From NCBI GenBank assembly GCA_013824085.1, contig PNNF01000021.1, positions 1-38,599 on the forward strand: a DNA stretch of 38,599 nucleotides, given 5' to 3'. Shown piece by piece: positions 13,911 to 38,599 of the stretch. Each line of letters starts with the position of its first letter. Positions within the stretch are counted from its first letter, which is position 1. The stretch is from Chlorobiaceae bacterium (GTDB lineage Bacteria > Bacteroidota > Ignavibacteria > Ignavibacteriales > Ignavibacteriaceae). Below the pieces are notes generated by a model, which saw only the letters and a program-made list of their open reading frames with translations, was not told the origin of the DNA and ran no database searches. The position numbers and the translations under genes were made by a program.

Positions 13911-14096
13911 TTAATTAATTTCTTCTACTTTTACCAAGTGAGCAACTTTGTTGAGCATTCCTCTAATCTGCGGAGTATCATTATGTTCAACTTTATGATT
14001 CGGTCTTGCGAGCCCAAGCGCTTCGATAGTTCTTTTCTGATCAAAGGGTCTATCAATTACGCTTCTAATCTGAGTTACTTTTAATTTCTTTGCCAT
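13911..14096 (-). CDS. rpmD: 50S ribosomal protein L30
   Basis: 61 residues from the ATG at 14096. A second ATG directly upstream (14099) would add one methionine, but GAGG then lies only two bases away, against five for the inner ATG, so I prefer 14096. The sequence [15 protein letters not shown] then [37 protein letters not shown] is the complete L30 ferredoxin-like fold. L30 binds 5S/23S rRNA contacts on the large subunit. It follows rpsE by about ten bases. Confidence 0.96.
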
Positions 14097-14107
14097 CATA
14101 ACCTCAA

Positions 14108-14617
14108 TTATAAACTGAATAATTCTTTAGTTGATTCAATTCCTCTTTTGCTGCACATTTTGTGAGCATCAATCAAGTTTTCTAATGCACTTAATGTAGC
14201 TTTAACTTGATTATGAGGATTACTTGAACCTAAAGATTTCGTTAAAATATCTTGAACACCAGCAGCTTCAAGAACGGCTCTAACTCCACCACCTGCAATT
14301 AATCCTGTACCAGGAGTAGCAGGTTTTAGTAAAACTTTCCCAGCACCAAATTTTCCGATAATGGTGTGAGGAATAGTTCCTTTATGAATTTTAACAGTAA
14401 CGAGATTTTTCTTAGCGTCATCAACGCCTTTAGAAATCGCGTCAGTTACTTCATTAGCTTTGCCCAAACCAATACCTACGGTTCCAGCGCCGTTGCCAAC
14501 TACAACAATAGCATTAAAACCAAACCGTCGCCCGCCTTTTACAACTTTGGCAACTCTATTGATATGGACAACTTTTTCTTTTAAGCCGTCGGATTCTGTT
14601 GTTTTACTTGTTTTCAA
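14108..14617 (-). CDS. rpsE: 30S ribosomal protein S5 (TTG start)
   Basis: 169 residues. The double-stranded-RNA-binding-like N-terminal domain is seen in [35 protein letters not shown], and the C-terminal domain in [42 protein letters not shown]5 shapes the mRNA entry channel and decoding accuracy. The start is TTG at 14617 with GGAG five bases upstream; an ATG slightly upstream is followed at once by a stop. It is separated from rplR by an intact tRNA-Gln gene, whose 3' end is 41 bases upstream of this start, so the rpsE message may begin at a tRNA-processing cut. Confidence 0.97.
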
Positions 14618-14658
14618 TTTTACTCCATTAAATCGAATCTATTTCAAAAAAATTTTTG

Positions 14659-14729
14659 CTGCCGAGGGAGGATTTGAACCTCCACGTACGGCTCCAAAGG
14701 CCGCTGTCCTACCATTAGACGACCCGGCA
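14659..14729 (-). tRNA. tRNA-Gln (anticodon TTG) inside the ribosomal protein operon
   Basis: 71 bases forming a full cloverleaf. The acceptor stem is TGCCGGG / CTCGGCA (one G-T pair) with discriminator G. The D arm is GTCT-AATGGTA-GGAC. The anticodon arm is GCGGC-CTTTGGA-GCCGT, giving anticodon TTG. The variable loop is ACGT and the T arm GGAGG-TTCAAAT-CCTCC. The U1-A72 first pair and G discriminator are glutamine identity features. CCA is not encoded. It sits nine bases after the rplR stop and 41 bases before the rpsE start on the same strand, so it must be cut out of the operon transcript unless it has its own promoter, which I do not see. Confidence 0.95.
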
Positions 14730-14738
14730 AAATTCCAA

Positions 14739-15104
14739 CTAAAATTTGAGTCCACCTTCACGAGCACCTTCAGCCACTGCTTGAATTCTGCCGTGATATC
14801 TAAAACCATTTCTATCAAAAACTATTGTTGTGATATTATTCTCTAAAGCTTTTTTAGCGATCAAAGTTCCGACCAATTTACTTTTCGAAACCTTACCTTT
14901 AATACCAACTAAATCAGATTTTAATTCTTCAGATTTTGTTGATGCTGAAACTAAAGTTTTTCCTGTCGAGTCATCAATTAGTTGAGCGTAAATATGATTT
15001 AAGCTTCTGAAAACTGACATTCTTGGTCTTAAAGTAGAACCTTCAATTTTCTTTCTAATTTTTATCTTAGCTCTTTGTCTTGTAACTTGTTTTGTATTAT
15101 ACAT
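14739..15104 (-). CDS. rplR: 50S ribosomal protein L18
   Basis: 121 residues. The family pattern is complete: RQRAKIKIRKKIEGSTLRPRMSVFRSLNHIYAQLIDDSTGKTLVSAST, and the C-terminal FDRNGFRYHGRIQAVAEGAREGGLKF that contacts 5S rRNA. L18 delivers 5S rRNA to the large subunit together with L5. It lies 16 bases after rplF. Its TAG stop is only nine bases before the 5' end of the tRNA-Gln, so a ribosome terminating here would cover the tRNA's first bases. Confidence 0.97.
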   Translation of the reverse strand: MYNTKQVTRQRAKIKIRKKIEGSTLRPRMSVFRSLNHIYAQLIDDSTGKTLVSASTKSEELKSDLVGIKGKVSKSKLVGTLIAKKALENNITTIVFDRNGFRYHGRIQAVAEGAREGGLKF

Positions 15105-15120
15105 CTTTCAATCTCCGTAA

Positions 15121-15660
15121 TTACTTACCGGCAGTCTTTCCTGCTTTTCGTCTGATAGTTTCAGTTGAGTATTTAATTCCTTTACCTTTGTAAGGTTCAG
15201 GTTTTCTAATTGATCTAATCTTTGCAGCAATTGCACCAACTAATTGCTTATCAATGCCAGAGATGCTGATTTGAGTTGGTGTATTAACAACAAGTGTAAT
15301 ATCATCAGGTGGCAAAAAATAGATCGGGTGCGAATACCCAATTGTGATTAATAAATTTTTTCCTTTTAACTCTGCTTTGTAACCAACTCCAACAATATCG
15401 AGTATTTTAGAGTATCCAGCAGAGACACCAATTATCATATTTTGAATTAAAGCTCGGGTTAAGCCGTGAAGAGCTTTATTTCCTTTTTGATCATCGCTTC
15501 GAGTTACAATAATTTCATCTGCTTCATGCTTAATTGTAATGTTAGGATGAAAATTTTCAATTAATTTTCCTTTAGGTCCTGTAACAACTAAGTTATGACC
15601 AGTAAGAGAAACCTTTACATCTGAAGGAATTGTTATCGGTTTTTTACCTATTCGTGACAC
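15121..15660 (-). CDS. rplF: 50S ribosomal protein L6 (GTG start)
   Basis: 179 residues with the two repeated L6 domains: SRIGKKPITIPSDVKVSLTG and LVVTGPKGKL in the first, and the C-terminal rRNA-binding signature RKPEPYKGKGIKYSTETIRRKAGKTAGK in the second. L6 sits near the sarcin-ricin loop, where elongation factors bind. The start is GTG at 15660 with GGAG upstream. Conserved spc-operon order: rpsH-rplF-rplR. Confidence 0.97.
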   Translation of the reverse strand: MSRIGKKPITIPSDVKVSLTGHNLVVTGPKGKLIENFHPNITIKHEADEIIVTRSDDQKGNKALHGLTRALIQNMIIGVSAGYSKILDIVGVGYKAELKGKNLLITIGYSHPIYFLPPDDITLVVNTPTQISISGIDKQLVGAIAAKIRSIRKPEPYKGKGIKYSTETIRRKAGKTAGK

Positions 15661-15681
15661 TAAAAATCTCCATATTCAATT

Positions 15682-16077
15682 TTACCAAATTGTACAAAGC
15701 ACTTCGCCACCAGTTGATTGTAGGCGAGCTTGTTTATCAGTCATTAATCCTTTTGAAGTAGAAATGATCGCTATTCCTAAGCCATTTAAGACTCTTGGGA
15801 GTTTGTCTTTATTGGAATAAAGTCTTAAACCCGGCGAACTTTCTCTTCTTAAACCTGAAATAGCAGAAACTCCTTTATTATATCGTAATATAATTTTTAA
15901 CGTATTTTGTTTGTCATCTTCAATAACTTGAAAATCGTTTATGAATTTTTGCTCTTTCAAGATTTGAGCCAGACTTACTTTCATTTTAGATGAAGGTATT
16001 TCCACTCTTTTTTTGTTTGCTTTAACAGCATTTCTAATTCTTGTTAATAAATCTGCAATCGGATCAGTAATTGTCAT
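15682..16077 (-). CDS. rpsH: 30S ribosomal protein S8
   Basis: 131 residues. It begins [31 protein letters not shown] and ends with [33 protein letters not shown], the standard S8 blocks. S8 binds the central domain of 16S rRNA; in E. coli it also represses the spc operon by binding near the rplE start. I did not find a convincing mimic of that site here. It lies 11 bases after rpsN with an ATG and GGAG upstream. Confidence 0.97.
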
Positions 16078-16088
16078 ATAATCTCCTT

Positions 16089-16358
16089 CTACCAGCTTGA
16101 CTTTTTAACTCCGGGTATTTCACCACGAAGTGCTTTTTCTCTAAATACTAATCTAGAAATTCCAAATTTTCTGTAATATGCTCTTGCTCTACCAGTTACC
16201 ATACATCTATTGTGCATTCTGGTAGGCGAGGAATTTCTTGGAAGTTTTTGTAATTCTTCCCACTCACCTTTAGCTTTTAATTCTTCTCTAAGTTTTTTGT
16301 ACTTATTAAAGAGTCTTAATCTTTTTGCTTCTCTAGCGAATAAACTTCTTCTTGCCAT
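16089..16358 (-). CDS. rpsN: 30S ribosomal protein S14 (long, zinc-free form)
   Basis: 89 residues. It has the longer form without the CxxC zinc pairs of the 61-residue version: [30 protein letters not shown] at the start and the conserved C-terminal [40 protein letters not shown]14 sits in the 30S head near S3 and S10. It lies between rplE and rpsH, 11 bases from each. Confidence 0.97.
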
Positions 16359-16369
16359 TAAATTTCCTC

Positions 16370-17035
16370 TTATGCTCCTTTAACTTCTTTTTTTCTAAAT
16401 GGCAAACCAAATGCCACTAGTAATTCGAATGCTTCATTATCGGTCATAGCCGAGGTAACAAATGTGATATCCATTCCTTTAATTTTAGAAACTTTATCGA
16501 CATTTATTTCAGGGAAAATAATCTGTTCTTTTATACCTATTGTATAATTTCCTCTTCCATCAAAAGATTTATCGGACAAGCCTCTAAAATCTCTTACACG
16601 TGGAAGTGCAATATTAATAAATCTGTCAAGGAATTCATACATTTTATCTCTACGCAAAGTTACTTTGCAACCGATACTCATTCCCTCACGTAGCTTAAAA
16701 TTAGAAATTGCTTTTTTTGCTTTTCTTACTGAAGCTTTTTGTCCAGTGATAGTTTCCATCTCTTGAACTGCTTCTTCAAGAATTTTTGGATCTGTAACAG
16801 CAGCACCAACGCCCATATTTACAATTATCTTGTGAAGCTTAGGTACTTGCATAACATTTTTATAAGCAAGTTTTTCCTTTAAAGCTGGAACTAATTCTTT
16901 ATTATAATGCAACAAAAGACGACAAGGAATTTTTACTGCTTTTTCGACAACTTTAGTTTCTACAACTTTCGGTTGCTCTTTAGCATTCTTCTCTTTTTTT
17001 GGAGCTACTACTTTTTTTGTTTTTTTATCTGTCAT
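16370..17035 (-). CDS. rplE: 50S ribosomal protein L5 with lysine-rich N-terminal extension
   Basis: 221 residues, about 40 longer than typical L5. The conserved core starts near residue 43 ([19 protein letters not shown]), continues with [16 protein letters not shown] and [28 protein letters not shown], and ends [18 protein letters not shown]. Residues 1-38 are a low-complexity stretch rich in lysine, valine and glutamate. The ATG at 17035 is the first start after the rplX stop; a TTG pair just before the core has no ribosome binding site, so the extension is probably translated. L5 binds 5S rRNA and contacts the P-site tRNA and S13. Confidence 0.95.
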
Positions 17036-17055
17036 TTATATTTAACCTAAAAGGG

Positions 17056-17385
17056 TTATTGTTTAAACATTTCGCCGGATTTTATACCAACTCTAGCTAT
17101 TCTTTTTTTACCAGTTTTTTCTTCCAAAACTATTCTTGATCCAATTCGAGTTGGTTCATTAGTTTTTGGATCTAAAATCATAACATTTGAGACATGAATT
17201 GGTTGCTCTTTTTCAAGAATTCCACCTTGTGGATTTCTTTGAGTTGGCTTAGTATGTCTTTTTCTAATATTTACGCCTTCAATGATTATTCTGTTCTGTT
17301 TAGGATAAACTTTTAGAACTTTTCCGGTTTTACTTTTATCGTTACCAGAAATAACCATTACCATATCATTTTTTTTAATTCTCAT
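17056..17385 (-). CDS. rplX: 50S ribosomal protein L24
   Basis: 109 residues. The N-terminal KOW motif is clear ([36 protein letters not shown]), followed by the usual [29 protein letters not shown] loop. L24 initiates 50S assembly at the 5' end of 23S rRNA and lies near the tunnel exit. It follows rplN by nine bases and precedes rplE by 20, the conserved order. Confidence 0.97.
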
Positions 17386-17394
17386 TGTAAACCT

Positions 17395-17763
17395 TTATAA
17401 AACTTCTGGAGCTAATGAAACAATTTTCATGTATTGTTTTTCTCTCAATTCTCTTGCAACTGGTCCAAAGATACGAGTTCCTCTTGGATCGCCTTGTGCA
17501 TTAAGAAGAACAACAGCATTTTCATCAAATCTAATGTAAGAGCCATCTTTTCTGCGAACTTCTTTTTTTGTTCTAACAATTACTGCTTTAGAAACTTCAC
17601 CTTTTTTTACTGCTCCATTAGGAATAGCAGACTTAACTGTAATGACGATAATGTCGCCAACAGTTGCATATTTTCTTCCACTACCGCCAAGAACACGAAT
17701 GCACCTGACTTTTTTAGCACCAGAATTATCTGCTGCAATTAAATTTGTTTCTTCTTGAATCAT
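17395..17763 (-). CDS. rplN: 50S ribosomal protein L14
   Basis: 122 residues, exact family length. It opens [28 protein letters not shown] and contains [36 protein letters not shown] and [15 protein letters not shown], the L14 signatures. L14 forms intersubunit bridges and, in other bacteria, is the docking site of the silencing factor RsfS. It lies 20 bases after rpsQ, with ATG start. Confidence 0.98.
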
Positions 17764-17783
17764 TTTTTAGCCACTCCTTAAAA

Positions 17784-18041
17784 CTACTTTGCTTTTTCAA
17801 TTACTTCTACTAAACGCCATCGTTTTTTACTGCTCAAAGGTCTTGTTTCCATTAATTTAACGACGTCACCAATAGTGCAGACGTTTAGTTCATCATGAGC
17901 CATAAGCTTAGTAGTTTTTGTAAAATATTTTTTATAAATCGGATGCGGAACTCTTCGTTCTATTGCAACCGAGATGGTTTTATCCATTTTATTGCTAACT
18001 ACAACACCGATTCTTGTTTTTCTTAATGCTCTTTGTTCCAT
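17784..18041 (-). CDS. rpsQ: 30S ribosomal protein S17
   Basis: 85 residues, an OB-fold protein. The signatures are [34 protein letters not shown] and the C-terminal [28 protein letters not shown]17 is a primary 16S rRNA binder in the 30S body. It lies between rpmC and rplN in conserved order, with 31 and 20 base gaps. Confidence 0.97.
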
Positions 18042-18072
18042 TTATAATGATCTTTCTTTCCTGCTTAATGAA

Positions 18073-18276
18073 TTACGATTTAACTTCTTTAGCAGCACGT
18101 TCTTTTAATATTGTTTTCATTTTAGCAATATCTCGTTTTGTGTTTCTGAGCTTTGCAGTATTGGTCAATTGCTTTAATTCATGAGCAAATCTTAAATCAA
18201 CAGAATTATTTTCTTCTTCAACAATTCTTTTTACTAACTCGTCAGTTGACATTTCTCTAATTTCTCTAATCTTCAT
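18073..18276 (-). CDS. rpmC: 50S ribosomal protein L29
   Basis: 67 residues from the ATG at 18276. An ATG five codons upstream (18291) would overlap rplP by 11 bases and add a non-conserved KDDS stretch. The inner ATG has AAGGA seven bases upstream, begins four bases after the rplP stop and gives the family start MKIREIREMSTDELVKRI, so I chose it. The two-helix body ends in RNTKRDIAKMKTILKERA. L29 lies beside the tunnel exit next to L23, where chaperones and SRP dock. Confidence 0.95.
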   Translation of the reverse strand: MKIREIREMSTDELVKRIVEEENNSVDLRFAHELKQLTNTAKLRNTKRDIAKMKTILKERAAKEVKS

Positions 18277-18280
18277 ACTG

Positions 18281-18700
18281 TCATCCTTCATAATCTGGTC
18301 TAGTTACAACTTTGGTTTTGATCGGAAGTTTATGAGAGCACAAAGATAAAGCTTCATTAGCAATTTCTTTAGTTACTCCAGAGACTTCAAACATAATTCT
18401 TCCGGGTTTTACGACAGCCACCCAAAATTCAGGAGCGCCTTTACCTTTACCCATTCTTGTTTCAAGCGGTTTCTTAGAAACTGGCTTGTCAGGGAAAATT
18501 CTGATCCAGACTTTTCCATCTCTTTTCATTTTTCTTGAGAGAGCGACACGGCAAGCTTCAATCTGCCGGCTTGTAATCCAAGCTGGTTCCATAGCTTTTA
18601 ATCCGAAATCACCGAAGGCAACTGAAAAACCTGCTTTAGCTTTTCCTTTCCTTCTGCCTCTATGCGCTCTTCTGTATTTAACTCTTTTTGGTAATAACAT
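18281..18700 (-). CDS. rplP: 50S ribosomal protein L16
   Basis: 139 residues. It starts [21 protein letters not shown] and has [41 protein letters not shown] and the catalytic-region [24 protein letters not shown]16 organises the A-site and peptidyl transferase region of the large subunit. It lies 20 bases after rpsC, with ATG and GGAG upstream. No alteration in the conserved loop is seen. Confidence 0.98.
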
Positions 18701-18720
18701 TATTTAATTTCTCCAACAAA

Positions 18721-19362
18721 TTATTCTGAGGAACGTTTTCCTAAAATTTCTCCTCGACAAATCCACACTTTTATTCCAATGGATCCATAGATAGTTTCAG
18801 CTCTGCCATTTGCGTAATCGATATCAGCTCTAATAGTATGAAGTGGAATTCTTCCTTCTTTATATTGCTCAGTTCTTGCCATTTCCGCACCACCAAGTCT
18901 TCCGGAACATTTAATTCTTATTCCTTCAGCTCCCATTCTCATGGTTGCAGAGATTGCAGTTTTCATTGCTCTTCTGAAAGAGATTCTGCCTTCAATTTGA
19001 TTCGCAATTTGTTCAGCAACTAAGAAAGCATCTAATTCAGGTCTTTTAATTTCGGTAATCTGAATTTTTACATCTTTATCTGTAACACTTTTTAATTCTT
19101 GTTCGAGTTGAGAAATTTCTTTTCCACTCTTTCCAATTACTACACCGGGTCTGGATGTATGAATTGTAATAATTACATTTCTTGACGTTCTATCAATAAT
19201 TATCTTTGAAATACCAGCCTTTTTAAGTCTGCTTCTGAGATATCCTCTTATTTTATCGTCTTCTTTAAGTTTTAAGGAATAAGATTTTGATTCAAACCAA
19301 TTTGAATCCCAACCTCTTATTATACCAACTCTAAAACCTACAGGGTGAGTTTTCTGTCCCAA
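18721..19362 (-). CDS. rpsC: 30S ribosomal protein S3 (TTG start)
   Basis: 213 residues. The start [22 protein letters not shown] is canonical, followed by the KH domain with [13 protein letters not shown] in the middle, and the C-terminal [34 protein letters not shown] and [25 protein letters not shown]3 forms the mRNA entry tunnel and helicase centre with S4 and S5. The start codon is TTG at 19362, preceded by a perfect AAGGAGGT site. It lies nine bases after rplV. Confidence 0.97.
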
Positions 19363-19371
19363 TCTACCTCC

Positions 19372-19719
19372 TTAGACTTTCTTCTTTGCAACAACAATTG
19401 TTAAATGACATGATCTTTTCCTTATGCGATAAGCTCTACCCATCGGTGCGGGTGAAATTCTTTTCACTGTCGGTCCTTGATTCACAAAAACTTCTTTCAC
19501 GAACAATTCACTTGGATCAACTTTTCCTTCATCACCTTTGTGAAGGAAATTAGCGATAGCAGATTTTAGTGTTTTTTCAGCATCCTTAGCAGAGTGCTTC
19601 GGTTGAAAATGTAAAATCTCTAATGCTTTATTCGCAGATACTCCACGAATTAAGTCAACCACTAATCTCATTTTTCGTGGTGAAGAGCCGATATATTTAT
19701 TTATTGCTTTCGCTTCCAT
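19372..19719 (-). CDS. rplV: 50S ribosomal protein L22
   Basis: 115 residues. Family blocks are SSPRKMRLVVDLIRGVSANKALEILHFQPKHSAK and the extended tunnel hairpin with VKRISPAPMGRAYRIRKRSCHLTIVV. The hairpin reaches the polypeptide exit tunnel, where macrolide-resistance changes occur in other bacteria. It follows rpsS by 23 bases, ATG start. Confidence 0.97.
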   Translation of the reverse strand: MEAKAINKYIGSSPRKMRLVVDLIRGVSANKALEILHFQPKHSAKDAEKTLKSAIANFLHKGDEGKVDPSELFVKEVFVNQGPTVKRISPAPMGRAYRIRKRSCHLTIVVAKKKV

Positions 19720-19742
19720 TTTTCCTCAATCTCAAAATCTAT

Positions 19743-20030
19743 TTACTTTGACTTAGACGCTTTTTCAGCTTTTGTACCAGGGTGCGATCTGAAAATTCTT
19801 GTAGGCGAAAACTCACCTAACTTATGACCAACCATATTCTCAGTAATAAAAACAGGGATCATTTTATTTCCATTGTGCACCGCTATTGTATGACCAACAA
19901 AATCTGGTGATATCGTTGAAGACCGTGACCAAGTTTTAATAATCTTTTTTTGATTAACTTGATTAAGTGCATCAACTTTTTTCAATAACTTAATATCTAT
20001 GTAAGGACCTTTTTTTACCGAACGAGGCAT
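19743..20030 (-). CDS. rpsS: 30S ribosomal protein S19
   Basis: 95 residues. It opens [22 protein letters not shown] and carries [46 protein letters not shown], the S19 signatures. S19 forms a complex with S13 in the 30S head, near the A-site tRNA. It lies eight bases after rplB and 23 before rplV. Confidence 0.97.
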
Positions 20031-20038
20031 ATCATTCT

Positions 20039-20863
20039 CTACTTACGTCGTTTAATAATATATTTATTAGAAATATTTTTTCTTTTTCTTGTCTTTAAGC
20101 CTTTAGCTTTTTGTCCCCATGGAGAGACTGGATGTCCACCGCCTGAAGTTTTACCTTCACCACCACCCATCGGGTGATCTACAGGATTCATCGCAACACC
20201 TCTAACTCTGGGTCTTCTTCCTAACCATCGTGATCTACCTGCTTTACCTGAACTTATGTTCAACTGTTCAGCATTTCCTACAACACCAAGTGTAGCCATA
20301 CAATCTAATCGTATCAATCTAATTTCACCAGATGGCAATTTTACTTGCGCAAATTCTTTCTCTTTAGCCATCAATTGTAGCGAGCAACCAGCACTTCTAC
20401 CAAGCTGTCCACCTTTCCCCGGCTTCAATTCAACGTTGTGAATAAAGCTACCGAGCGGAATTTCTTTTAATGTTAGTGCGTTTCCAACTTTAATATCAGA
20501 ACCTGGTCCGGATACAATTGAATCACCAACTTTTAATTGATCAGGAGCGAGAATATATCTTTTTTCACCATCAACATAAAACAACAAAGCTATTCTGCAA
20601 GATCTATTAGGATCATACTCAATTGAAAATACTTTTGCAGGGATTCCAAATTTATTTCGTTTGAAATCGATAAGTCGATATTTTCTTTTGTGTCCACCAC
20701 CAACAAATCGAGTAGTAATTCTTCCGTGATTATTTCTACCGCCAGTTTTCTTTAACGAAACGGTTAAAGATTTTTCCGGAGTCGATTTAGTAATTTCTTC
20801 AAATGAAGAACTTAATTTAAATCTTGACGAAGGTGTTACCGGTTTTGATTTTATAATTGCCAT
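20039..20863 (-). CDS. rplB: 50S ribosomal protein L2
   Basis: 274 residues. The OB-fold and SH3-like RNA-binding domains are both present ([24 protein letters not shown] and [22 protein letters not shown]). The C-terminal loop has [21 protein letters not shown] followed by GGHPVSPWG, including the histidine important for peptidyl transferase activity. L2 is one of the largest and most conserved proteins of the 50S core. It follows rplW by 14 bases. Confidence 0.98.
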
Positions 20864-20877
20864 TCTAATTCCAAAAA

Positions 20878-21171
20878 CTATGCTTGTTCAAAAATTTCTA
20901 TTTTTTCACCAGACTTCAAAGTTACAATTGCTTTTTTATACCTTGAAGTTCTACCGGAAAATCTACCTCTTTTGGTGAATTGAGTTTTTGATTTTCCTTT
21001 GAATCTAATTGTATTTACATCAGTAACGTTCACATTAAATTTCTTTTTAATGATAGCTGCAATTTCAATTTTATTTGCATCATAAAGAACAATAAAACCG
21101 TATTTATTTTCAGCGGCATTAATATTTGTCATTTTCTCAGTAAATAGAGGTTTAATCAATACGTTTCTCAT
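20878..21171 (-). CDS. rplW: 50S ribosomal protein L23
   Basis: 97 residues. It starts [37 protein letters not shown] and contains the [17 protein letters not shown] strand and the basic [33 protein letters not shown] end. L23 lies at the tunnel exit and docks trigger factor and SRP. Its ATG shares one base with the stop of rplD, which implies coupled translation. Confidence 0.97.
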
Positions 21172-21815
21172 TACACTACCTCTTTATTAACTTGATACAT
21201 CATATTCATTGCTTCGACGGCACTTTTTTGAATAACCAACATCTGATTATCTAAAATATGATATGTACTTGCTTTACTTGCTTCCAAAATACTTACCTTA
21301 GGAATATTTCTACCAGATTTCCAAACTTGTTCTTGTTTACCATTTGTAAGCAAGAGAGTTTTTTTACCAGATAGTTTTAATGCAGTTAAAATATCAACAA
21401 ATTCTTTTGTCTTTGGTGCATTAAAATTAAAATCTTCAACAATCATCAACTGACCATCTTTAACTTTATGAGAAAGTGCAGATTTTTTTGCGAGCATTTT
21501 AATCTTCTTCGGTAAATCTTGACGGTAACTTCTTGGACGAGGTCCAAAAATAGTTCCACCACCGACCCACAAAGGAGATCTAATTGTACCAGCTCGAGCA
21601 CCGCCTCTTCCTTTTTGCTTCCAAGGTTTTTTACCACCACCACGGACTTCACTTCTCTCTTTAGTTTTGTGAGTTCCTTGGCGTTGATTAGCCAAATAAG
21701 CCTTTACTGAAAGATAAATTACGTGGTCATTTGGTTCGATACCAAATATGCCATCGGATAATTCAATTTTTTCATCCGACAACGAGCCATCTTTTTTATA
21801 AATATCTATTAACAT
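21171..21815 (-). CDS. rplD: 50S ribosomal protein L4
   Basis: 214 residues. The long tunnel-lining loop is conserved: RQGTHKTKERSEVRGGGKKPWKQKGRGGARAGTIRSPLWVGGGTIFGPRPRSY. The globular part has LPKKIKMLAKKSALSHKVKDGQLMIVEDF. L4 reaches the exit-tunnel constriction; in E. coli it also represses its own operon by attenuation, but no S10-leader-type structure was recognised here. It follows rplC by 11 bases. Confidence 0.97.
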   Translation of the reverse strand: MLIDIYKKDGSLSDEKIELSDGIFGIEPNDHVIYLSVKAYLANQRQGTHKTKERSEVRGGGKKPWKQKGRGGARAGTIRSPLWVGGGTIFGPRPRSYRQDLPKKIKMLAKKSALSHKVKDGQLMIVEDFNFNAPKTKEFVDILTALKLSGKKTLLLTNGKQEQVWKSGRNIPKVSILEASKASTYHILDNQMLVIQKSAVEAMNMMYQVNKEVV

Positions 21816-21826
21816 CTTTTTCCAAA

Positions 21827-22450
21827 CTACTTTTTATGTAATTCTAATATTGAATTTCTATGTCCGGGAACTGCGCCTTTAACTAAAACTATATTTTTAT
21901 CAACCAATACTTTTACAACTTTTAGGTTTCTAACGGATACGTTATCTCCACCCATACGTCCAGCCATTTTTTGACCTTTGAAAACTCGTGAAGGAGAAGA
22001 ACTCGCTCCAATAGAACCGGGGGCTCTAACTCTATCACTCTGACCGTGAGTCGCGCTTCCAACTCCACTAAAATTATGACGTTTAACTACTCCTTGAAAA
22101 CCCTTACCTTTGCTCACACCAGAAACTTTAATTAATTCGCCTTCAGTAAAGAAATCAGCTTTTAGTTCATCTCCCATTTTAAAATCGGAGATATTGTTGA
22201 ACTTAAATTCTCGTAAGACAGAAGCGATAGCCGTACCCTTTTTTTCAAAATAAGTAGCAACAGGTTTAGTTGATGCTTTCCGCTTTTTCTCACCAAATCC
22301 TAATTGAATAGCCTCATAACCATTTTTTTCTTTAGTGCGTATCTCAATCACCTTACAAGGACCAACTTCGATAGCAGTGACAGAAATTTTAATTCCGTCA
22401 GGGCTAAAAATTGTTGTCATTCCTATTTTCTTGCCGATTAAACCAGCCAT
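21827..22450 (-). CDS. rplC: 50S ribosomal protein L3
   Basis: 207 residues. It starts MAGLIGKKIGMTTIFSPDGIKISVTAIEVGPCKVIEI and has the peptidyl-transferase loop GVVKRHNFSGVGSATHGQSDRVRAPGSIGASSSPSRVFKGQKMAGRMG, including the glutamine that PrmB-type enzymes methylate in other bacteria. L3 helps start 50S assembly. It lies 15 bases after rpsJ, the usual S10-operon order. Confidence 0.97.
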   Translation of the reverse strand: MAGLIGKKIGMTTIFSPDGIKISVTAIEVGPCKVIEIRTKEKNGYEAIQLGFGEKKRKASTKPVATYFEKKGTAIASVLREFKFNNISDFKMGDELKADFFTEGELIKVSGVSKGKGFQGVVKRHNFSGVGSATHGQSDRVRAPGSIGASSSPSRVFKGQKMAGRMGGDNVSVRNLKVVKVLVDKNIVLVKGAVPGHRNSILELHKK

Positions 22451-38028: not shown

Positions 38029-38211
38029 TTAATAAATTCCTGTTAAGATTTGAGTAACAGCAATATCAATAACATAAGCAAAGAGTGCCATTATCAAGCA
38101 CATAACAATTACGATGTTAGTTGATTCCTTCAACTCTTCTTTAGTAGGCCAAGTAACTTTTTTCATTTCCTTGACAACATCAAGTGCGAAATTTTTTATT
38201 TTTTCTTTCAT
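38029..38211 (-). CDS. secE: Protein translocase subunit SecE
   Basis: 60 residues, the short single-span form. The amphipathic helix (KNFALDVVKEMKKVTWPTKEELKESTNIV) precedes one membrane segment (about 31-52, VIVMCLIMALFAYVIDIAVTQI). The motif KKVTWPTKEEL is the SecE signature. It clamps SecY in the translocon. It begins 19 bases after the 3' end of tRNA-Trp and ends eight bases before nusG. Confidence 0.96.
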   Translation of the reverse strand: MKEKIKNFALDVVKEMKKVTWPTKEELKESTNIVIVMCLIMALFAYVIDIAVTQILTGIY

Positions 38212-38230
38212 AAGCTATCTATTTTTCTTG

Positions 38231-38303
38231 CACGTCAGGAGGGACTTGAACCCCCAACCTGCGGTTTTGGAGACCGCTGCTCTACCAATTAAGCTACTGA
38301 CGT
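38231..38303 (-). tRNA. tRNA-Trp (anticodon CCA)
   Basis: 73 bases. Acceptor stem ACGTCAG / CTGACGT with discriminator G, anticodon arm GCGGT-CTCCAAA-ACCGC (anticodon CCA), variable loop AGGTT, T arm GGGGG-TTCAAGT-CCCTC. No encoded CCA. It lies between rpmG and secE, the location also seen in many other bacteria. Confidence 0.97.
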
Positions 38304-38317
38304 ACTTATTTATAAAA

Positions 38318-38467
38318 CTATTTAGTTTCTTTATGAATAGTATGTTTTTTATCCCAACGACAGTATTTTTTGAACTCTACTCTTGTCGGGTGATTTCTTT
38401 TATTTTTGTCAGTTGTGTAATTTCTTCTTTTACACTCTGTACATTCTAACGTTATAATATCTCTCAT
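38318..38467 (-). CDS. rpmG: 50S ribosomal protein L33, with incomplete zinc-ligand set
   Basis: 49 residues, translated directly from the sequence; too short for usual length cut-offs. It reads [49 protein letters not shown], which is L33 of the zinc-ribbon type. The first pair (C9, C12) and the third cysteine (C36) are present, but the position of the fourth cysteine is aspartate (D39, codon GAT). Asp might still bind the metal. L33 is a small large-subunit protein near the E site. GAAGG lies six bases before the ATG. It lies between tRNA-Thr (21 bases) and tRNA-Trp (14 bases), the usual rpmG-secE-nusG neighbourhood. Confidence 0.95.
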
Positions 38468-38488
38468 AATAAACCTTCAAATAAATTG

Positions 38489-38561
<73 letters not shown>

Positions 38562-38570
38562 AATAAAGCG

Positions 38571-38599
38571 AGCGGGAGACGGGACTCGAACCCGCGACC
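38571..38599 (-). tRNA. Partial tRNA, probably tRNA-Gly (3' half only)
   Basis: Only the T arm (GCGGG-TTCGAGT-CCCGT) and the 3' acceptor strand CTCCCGC with discriminator T are in the window; the anticodon lies beyond the right edge. An acceptor beginning GCGGGAG and a T discriminator fit bacterial tRNA-Gly, and E. coli has tRNA-Gly before tRNA-Thr(GGT) in the same neighbourhood. Identity is inferred. Confidence 0.65.

Follow-up and report, generated by a model that had tools for sequence, protein, structure and literature searches.

In mitochondria tRNA genes are placed between coding genes and the excision of the tRNAs frees the mRNAs, an arrangement known as tRNA punctuation. In bacteria, the tRNAs of the tufB operon, which are placed before tufB, are cut out of the transcript. 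In E. coli, translational coupling and feedback control operate across the rplR-rpsE point, along an intact message. The passages of PMC8046335 that deal with operon structure place tRNA-Thr-Tyr-Gly-Thr together with tufB and, on the model of the operons of Bacilli, count tRNA-Trp and rpmG as members of the secE operon. Moreover, secG leuU of E. coli is a polycistronic transcript of a protein gene and a tRNA that is processed by RNase P, according to a title cited in PMC3985628.

The window, which is the whole stretch of 38,599 nucleotides that was analysed, contains a tRNA-Gln gene within the core of the spc operon. The features of this locus are the following:

15104 to 14739, minus strand: rplR (uL18), the cistron upstream of tRNA-Gln (NCBIfam TIGR00060, 126.8 bits)
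14738 to 14730, minus strand: leader of 9 nt from the rplR stop to tRNA base 1, read from the sequence, with the RNase P cut expected at its 3' edge
14729 to 14659, minus strand: tRNA-Gln, anticodon UUG (ARAGORN, Rfam RF00005, covariation in 69 orthologues)
14658 to 14618, minus strand: trailer of 41 nt, read from the sequence, which includes C74 and, ahead of rpsE, a GGAG Shine-Dalgarno-like site; putative new mRNA 5' end
14617 to 14108, minus strand: rpsE (uS5), the downstream cistron, TTG start (NCBIfam TIGR01021, 212.9 bits)
14099 to 13911, minus strand: rpmD (uL30), the next cistron after rpsE (NCBIfam TIGR01308, 86.3 bits)

The tRNA-Gln gene and its surroundings

The first-pass annotation had placed an intact tRNA-Gln(UUG) gene between rplR and rpsE, and both its coordinates and the two spacers it gave were found to be exact. 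ARAGORN called a tRNA-Gln at 14729..14658 on the minus strand, with the anticodon ttg in a loop of 7 nt, and Rfam family RF00005 matched 14729..14659 over positions 1-71 of 71 with 62.0 bits (E 3e-11), a full cloverleaf well above the gathering score of 29 bits. The mature body starts with the pair U1-A72 and runs to the discriminator G73; C74 is encoded and CCA is not.

The flanking genes rplR and rpsE score above the curated cut-offs for L18 and S5. Between the end of the rplR stop at 14739 and the tRNA start at 14729 there are 9 nt, and a further 41 nt separate the tRNA end at 14659 from the TTG start of rpsE at 14617. The resulting rplR-rpsE gap of 121 nt stands out because the other gaps between the main ORFs of the minus strand, in the interval 13911 to 22450, measure only -11 to 31 nt. 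A tRNA on the same strand as the coding genes on either side of it, with such spacers, is what is expected of a mixed mRNA-tRNA operon.

The stems of the tRNA were compared in 69 distinct orthologues from the site. Pairing was kept in 99.8% of the 1449 stem cells and 11 of the 21 stem pairs showed two-sided changes, whereas none of 500 shuffles matched the real stems on any of five covariation measures, and controls slid out of the true register all gave lower values. This degree of pairing and covariation excludes a pseudogene: the gene is real, and selection acts on it as a tRNA.

The own genome is a draft assembly, and scoring of 150 of its 173 first-look candidates yielded 37 tRNA genes. 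The count of Gln(UUG) genes, which had been proposed as a check, gave one, the copy at the spc site, and there is one Gln(CUG) gene elsewhere. Under standard decoding the CUG anticodon does not read CAA, and the spc-site tRNA is therefore probably the only one in the cell that reads this codon. The tRNA set itself is incomplete or undercounted; some tRNAs that would be expected, tRNA-Ile(GAU) for example, were not typed among the 37 of this draft. The genome encodes a GlnRS (739.7 bits against a cut-off of 425.8); charging of the tRNA with glutamine is predicted.

Conservation and phylogenetic spread

Identical loci were collapsed before counting, which gave sets of 113, 114, 69 and 167 distinct loci for the different comparisons, with nine later loci left out. 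Of the 59 genomes of the same order, the own genome included, 58 (30 + 19 + 9) have a tRNA typed as Gln(UUG) at the rplR-rpsE site. In the remaining genome, G005, the contig start falls within the tRNA and leaves its last 22 nt, which are identical to the corresponding stretch in 39 of 190 loci; this genome offers nothing against a tRNA at its site.

Outside the order, 105 genomes belong to the same class and 101 of them have an rpsE match; in the 40 that were examined, the tRNA was found at the site in 20, which cover 7 of 20 families, and was absent from the other 20. One of these copies has the anticodon GTG. Since half of the sampled genomes outside the order do without it, the arrangement is not needed for life in this class. 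Of 20 genomes examined among those listed for the other classes of the phylum, none has a tRNA between rplR and rpsE, and the claim that this region is tightly packed elsewhere is borne out at the scale of the phylum. The distance between the two genes is 5-59 nt in 51 of the 52 loci without the tRNA. When the 80 named loci with the best rpsE similarity are considered, which overlap in part with the genomes counted separately, 68 have the tRNA and 12 are without it, one of the latter being titled Candidatus Kryptoniota.

On a quick FastTree phylogeny of S5, L18 and L6 (167 loci), the pattern of presence and absence requires 5 changes against a mean of 44 when shuffled. The starred branches are compatible with a single origin, on a tree that does not separate gain from loss. 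The likeliest history is an early gain within the class followed by some losses; an ancestor within the class would have acquired the gene at this position, and the order would have retained it ever after. This is a genuine, ancient and conserved arrangement.

An unusual case is genome G070, where the tRNA at the spc site (L187/L218) has a Gln-type body and the anticodon GTG in place of TTG. The typed tRNAs of this genome also include a Gln(CTG) and an ordinary tRNA-His(GTG), and no Gln(TTG) was found among them. A sequence error is the likeliest explanation for this anticodon; otherwise, the decoding of CAA in G070 would be puzzling.

Leader, trailer and transcription signals

In a set of 114 distinct arrangements the leader from the rplR stop to the tRNA has a length of 4 to 86 nt, with 58 of them at 9 nt or less; it reaches about 170 nt in L303, a locus outside this set. 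In six of the seven tRNA-bearing families outside the order the leaders measure 22-51 nt, and in the seventh 5-22 nt. The trailer, measured between the discriminator and the rpsE start candidate that lies furthest upstream, is 21-60 nt long in 88 of 112 arrangements (range 7-128). Before rpsE, 92 of 112 distinct arrangements have a Shine-Dalgarno-like motif; a rough control, with a single shuffle for each and a stretch that differed slightly, gave 22 of 112.

A consensus scan, which would miss promoters of the Bacteroidota type, found 4 promoter-like sites in the region where 5.5 were expected, counting both strands, and this number corresponds to chance. The scan for terminators gave 3 sites in the region against 1.1 expected, none of them after tRNA-Gln. 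An A5/T7 run does follow the tRNA-Gln of the window; it is not common to most of the relatives listed, and an intrinsic terminator at this place was rejected. A promoter hidden within rplR was likewise rejected, with the scan at chance and with third positions near the 3' end of the gene that vary, by eye, as they do elsewhere in it. A promoter inside rplR that differs from species to species would escape both the consensus scan and the comparison of synonymous sites. In 33 of the 114 distinct arrangements the leader is only 4-5 nt long and leaves no room for one outside rplR. We also considered structured surroundings of the tRNA, and discarded them with an extended fold that was no better than shuffles in the window (z -0.45).

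In a few relatives (L036, L040, L105, L108, L120, L121 and L130) the motif TGCCGG or GCCGG is found just past the tRNA, followed in L105 by seven T. Pairing of this motif with the 3' strand of the acceptor stem was not retained beyond a lead, as it concerns 7 of 113 distinct loci and not the window. In these relatives it is possible that a tRNA/terminator alternative exists.

Proposed expression and processing

We consider it probable that tRNA-Gln(UUG) is a cistron of the spc operon which is co-transcribed and then excised, splitting the ribosomal-protein mRNA. Given leaders as short as 4-5 nt, and with no promoter or terminator seen to be conserved and no synonymous constraint, the best reading is that the tRNA is excised from a shared spc transcript. 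The polymerase, starting from an upstream promoter, would read through rplR, the tRNA and rpsE; the tRNA would then fold out of the message, RNase P would cut on its 5' side just past the rplR stop, and on the other side a nuclease that processes 3' ends would cut. The message would thus be split into a part ending with rplR and a part comprising rpsE, rpmD and the following genes, the latter beginning with a short leader that bears its own Shine-Dalgarno site, and the rate at which the CAA-reading tRNA is made would depend on ribosomal-protein transcription. The first-pass annotation had argued that, as no separate promoter is visible, processing of the tRNA must cut the ribosomal-protein mRNA. 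The anatomy of the site and its conservation both argue for such a cut as probable: the tRNA is intact, has the orientation of the operon that contains it and shows no promoter or terminator of its own.

An own promoter inside rplR, with a further promoter or terminator near rpsE separating the units, would make the place of the tRNA in the operon incidental. A weak site within rplR at 14864..14835 matches 9 of 12 promoter positions and the trailers of some relatives, at 61-128 nt, offer room enough for a promoter. These points are outweighed by promoter-like sites at the level of chance, by an rplR 3' end without visible synonymous constraint, by the trailers of 21-60 nt in most arrangements and by the lack in the scan of a terminator-like site after the tRNA, and we regard separate transcription as unlikely. 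An assembly artefact or a dead tRNA relic was also considered, as nearly all the genomes concerned are, by their titles, metagenome assemblies. The arrangement recurs, however, throughout the order in separately assembled genomes, which rules out the assembly junction that had been named as a possible objection, and it is present too in L101, a MAG titled as a chromosome. With stems that covary and with no other UUG gene found among the tRNAs of the own genome, an artefact or relic was refuted and we give it a negligible probability.

The first-pass annotation had also proposed that translation and tRNA folding compete, as a ribosome stopping at rplR would cover the 5' strand of the tRNA. On such a reading the ribosome would delay the folding and cutting of the tRNA, which would act as a regulatory switch that links translation to the splitting of the mRNA. 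The footprint of a terminating ribosome is such that leaders of 4-9 nt put the 5' strand of the tRNA within its expected reach, and in the own genome the ribosome ending rplR probably does reach into the tRNA. Moreover, the motif downstream of the tRNA in a few relatives could pair with the 3' strand of the acceptor. Nevertheless this motif is absent from the window, the extended fold there does not exceed that of shuffles, and leader length varies so widely, up to the value in L303 and at least 22 nt in six of seven families outside the order, that the competition is not a kept design. It did not hold as a conserved function, and we judge a switch of this kind quite improbable.

Returning to excision from a common transcript, the own genome encodes an RNase P RNA of class A (243.3 bits). 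None of its proteins passes the cut-off for RNase Z (TIGR02651); three metallo-beta-lactamase proteins all score below it, and none of them was assigned as RNase Z. We suggest tentatively, as a possibility that is more doubtful than co-transcription itself, that the tRNA in the core of spc replaces or relaxes the coupling and feedback of the E. coli type across rplR-rpsE, ties the supply of the only CAA reader to ribosomal-protein transcription and makes RNase P obligate for the mRNA of S5, L30 and the later genes.

C74 and the CCA end

The nucleotide after the discriminator is C in 37 of the 37 tRNA genes of the own genome when aligned with Rfam (for example at 14658, 38230 and 38488); a pairing heuristic gave C74 in 31 of 33, and we place more trust in the Rfam-based count. 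The full CCA is encoded in one of these 37 genes, and in one more the sequence is cut off at the contig end. Similarly, C74 is present in all 44 tRNA genes counted in G070, 4 of them with CCA, and in 33 of the 34 counted out of 51 found in G207, which belongs to another class of the phylum (3 with CCA). At the rplR-rpsE site, C74 is found in 114 of 114 distinct arrangements and CCA in 26. This suggests a constraint on C74 alone, which could come from contact with RNase P or from a 3' cut made after C74.

In E. coli the GGU of the L15 region of RNase P RNA pairs with CCA. The L15 region of the RNase P RNA of the own genome (G000:C8:41380-41790, L270) reads UAGGAAAAUC, by eye, and the CCA-pairing GGU was not seen in it by the same inspection, as would suit tRNA genes without an encoded CCA.

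Comparison with known systems

A second part of the window bears on how general the arrangement is. It contains the following features:

38467 to 38318, minus strand: rpmG (TIGR01023, 70.3 bits)
38303 to 38231, minus strand: tRNA-Trp, between rpmG and secE (ARAGORN, Rfam)
38211 to 38029, minus strand: secE (TIGR00964)

These three genes are separated by spacers of 14 and 19 nt. From the window edge, over 38599..38211, the order is an apparent 3' end of a further tRNA, then tRNA-Thr, rpmG, tRNA-Trp and secE, all tightly arranged, and judging from this layout it looks like a second tRNA-punctuated stretch of the window. The design is the same as at the spc site with a tRNA of a different specificity, which favours generic co-transcription. 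Nothing marks glutamine out, and the special link between glutamine tRNA supply and ribosome synthesis that the first pass had suggested is not directly supported.

The general type is therefore already known, since rpmG, tRNA-Trp and secE are found in the window itself and PMC8046335, in its passages on this operon, places tRNA-Trp in the secE operon. There, likewise, a tRNA lies among translation genes, and the window has the same order of rpmG, tRNA-Trp and secE. The same passages set these genes between two operons, whereas tRNA-Gln is inside the core of the spc operon. In the open-access literature covered, no description was found of a tRNA between rplR and rpsE, which is weak evidence of novelty; the new part, a tRNA kept inside the spc core across a lineage, seems unreported. 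A tRNA in the middle of spc that is order-wide and essential-looking provides a natural test of two things: the extent to which translational coupling is required, and the part that RNase P can play in processing the mRNA of a core operon.

The secG leuU transcript of E. coli differs in that the tRNA ends the transcript, before a terminator, while tRNA-Gln is internal. The tufB operon resembles the present one, in the passages quoted above, in that tRNAs share an operon with a translation gene. The tRNAs there precede tufB, whereas the spc tRNA-Gln is placed between two ribosomal-protein cistrons. The likeness to mitochondria, which the first-pass annotation had also pointed out, is one of analogy alone: punctuation is there a rule for the whole genome, while in the bacterial genome described here it is found at a few sites.
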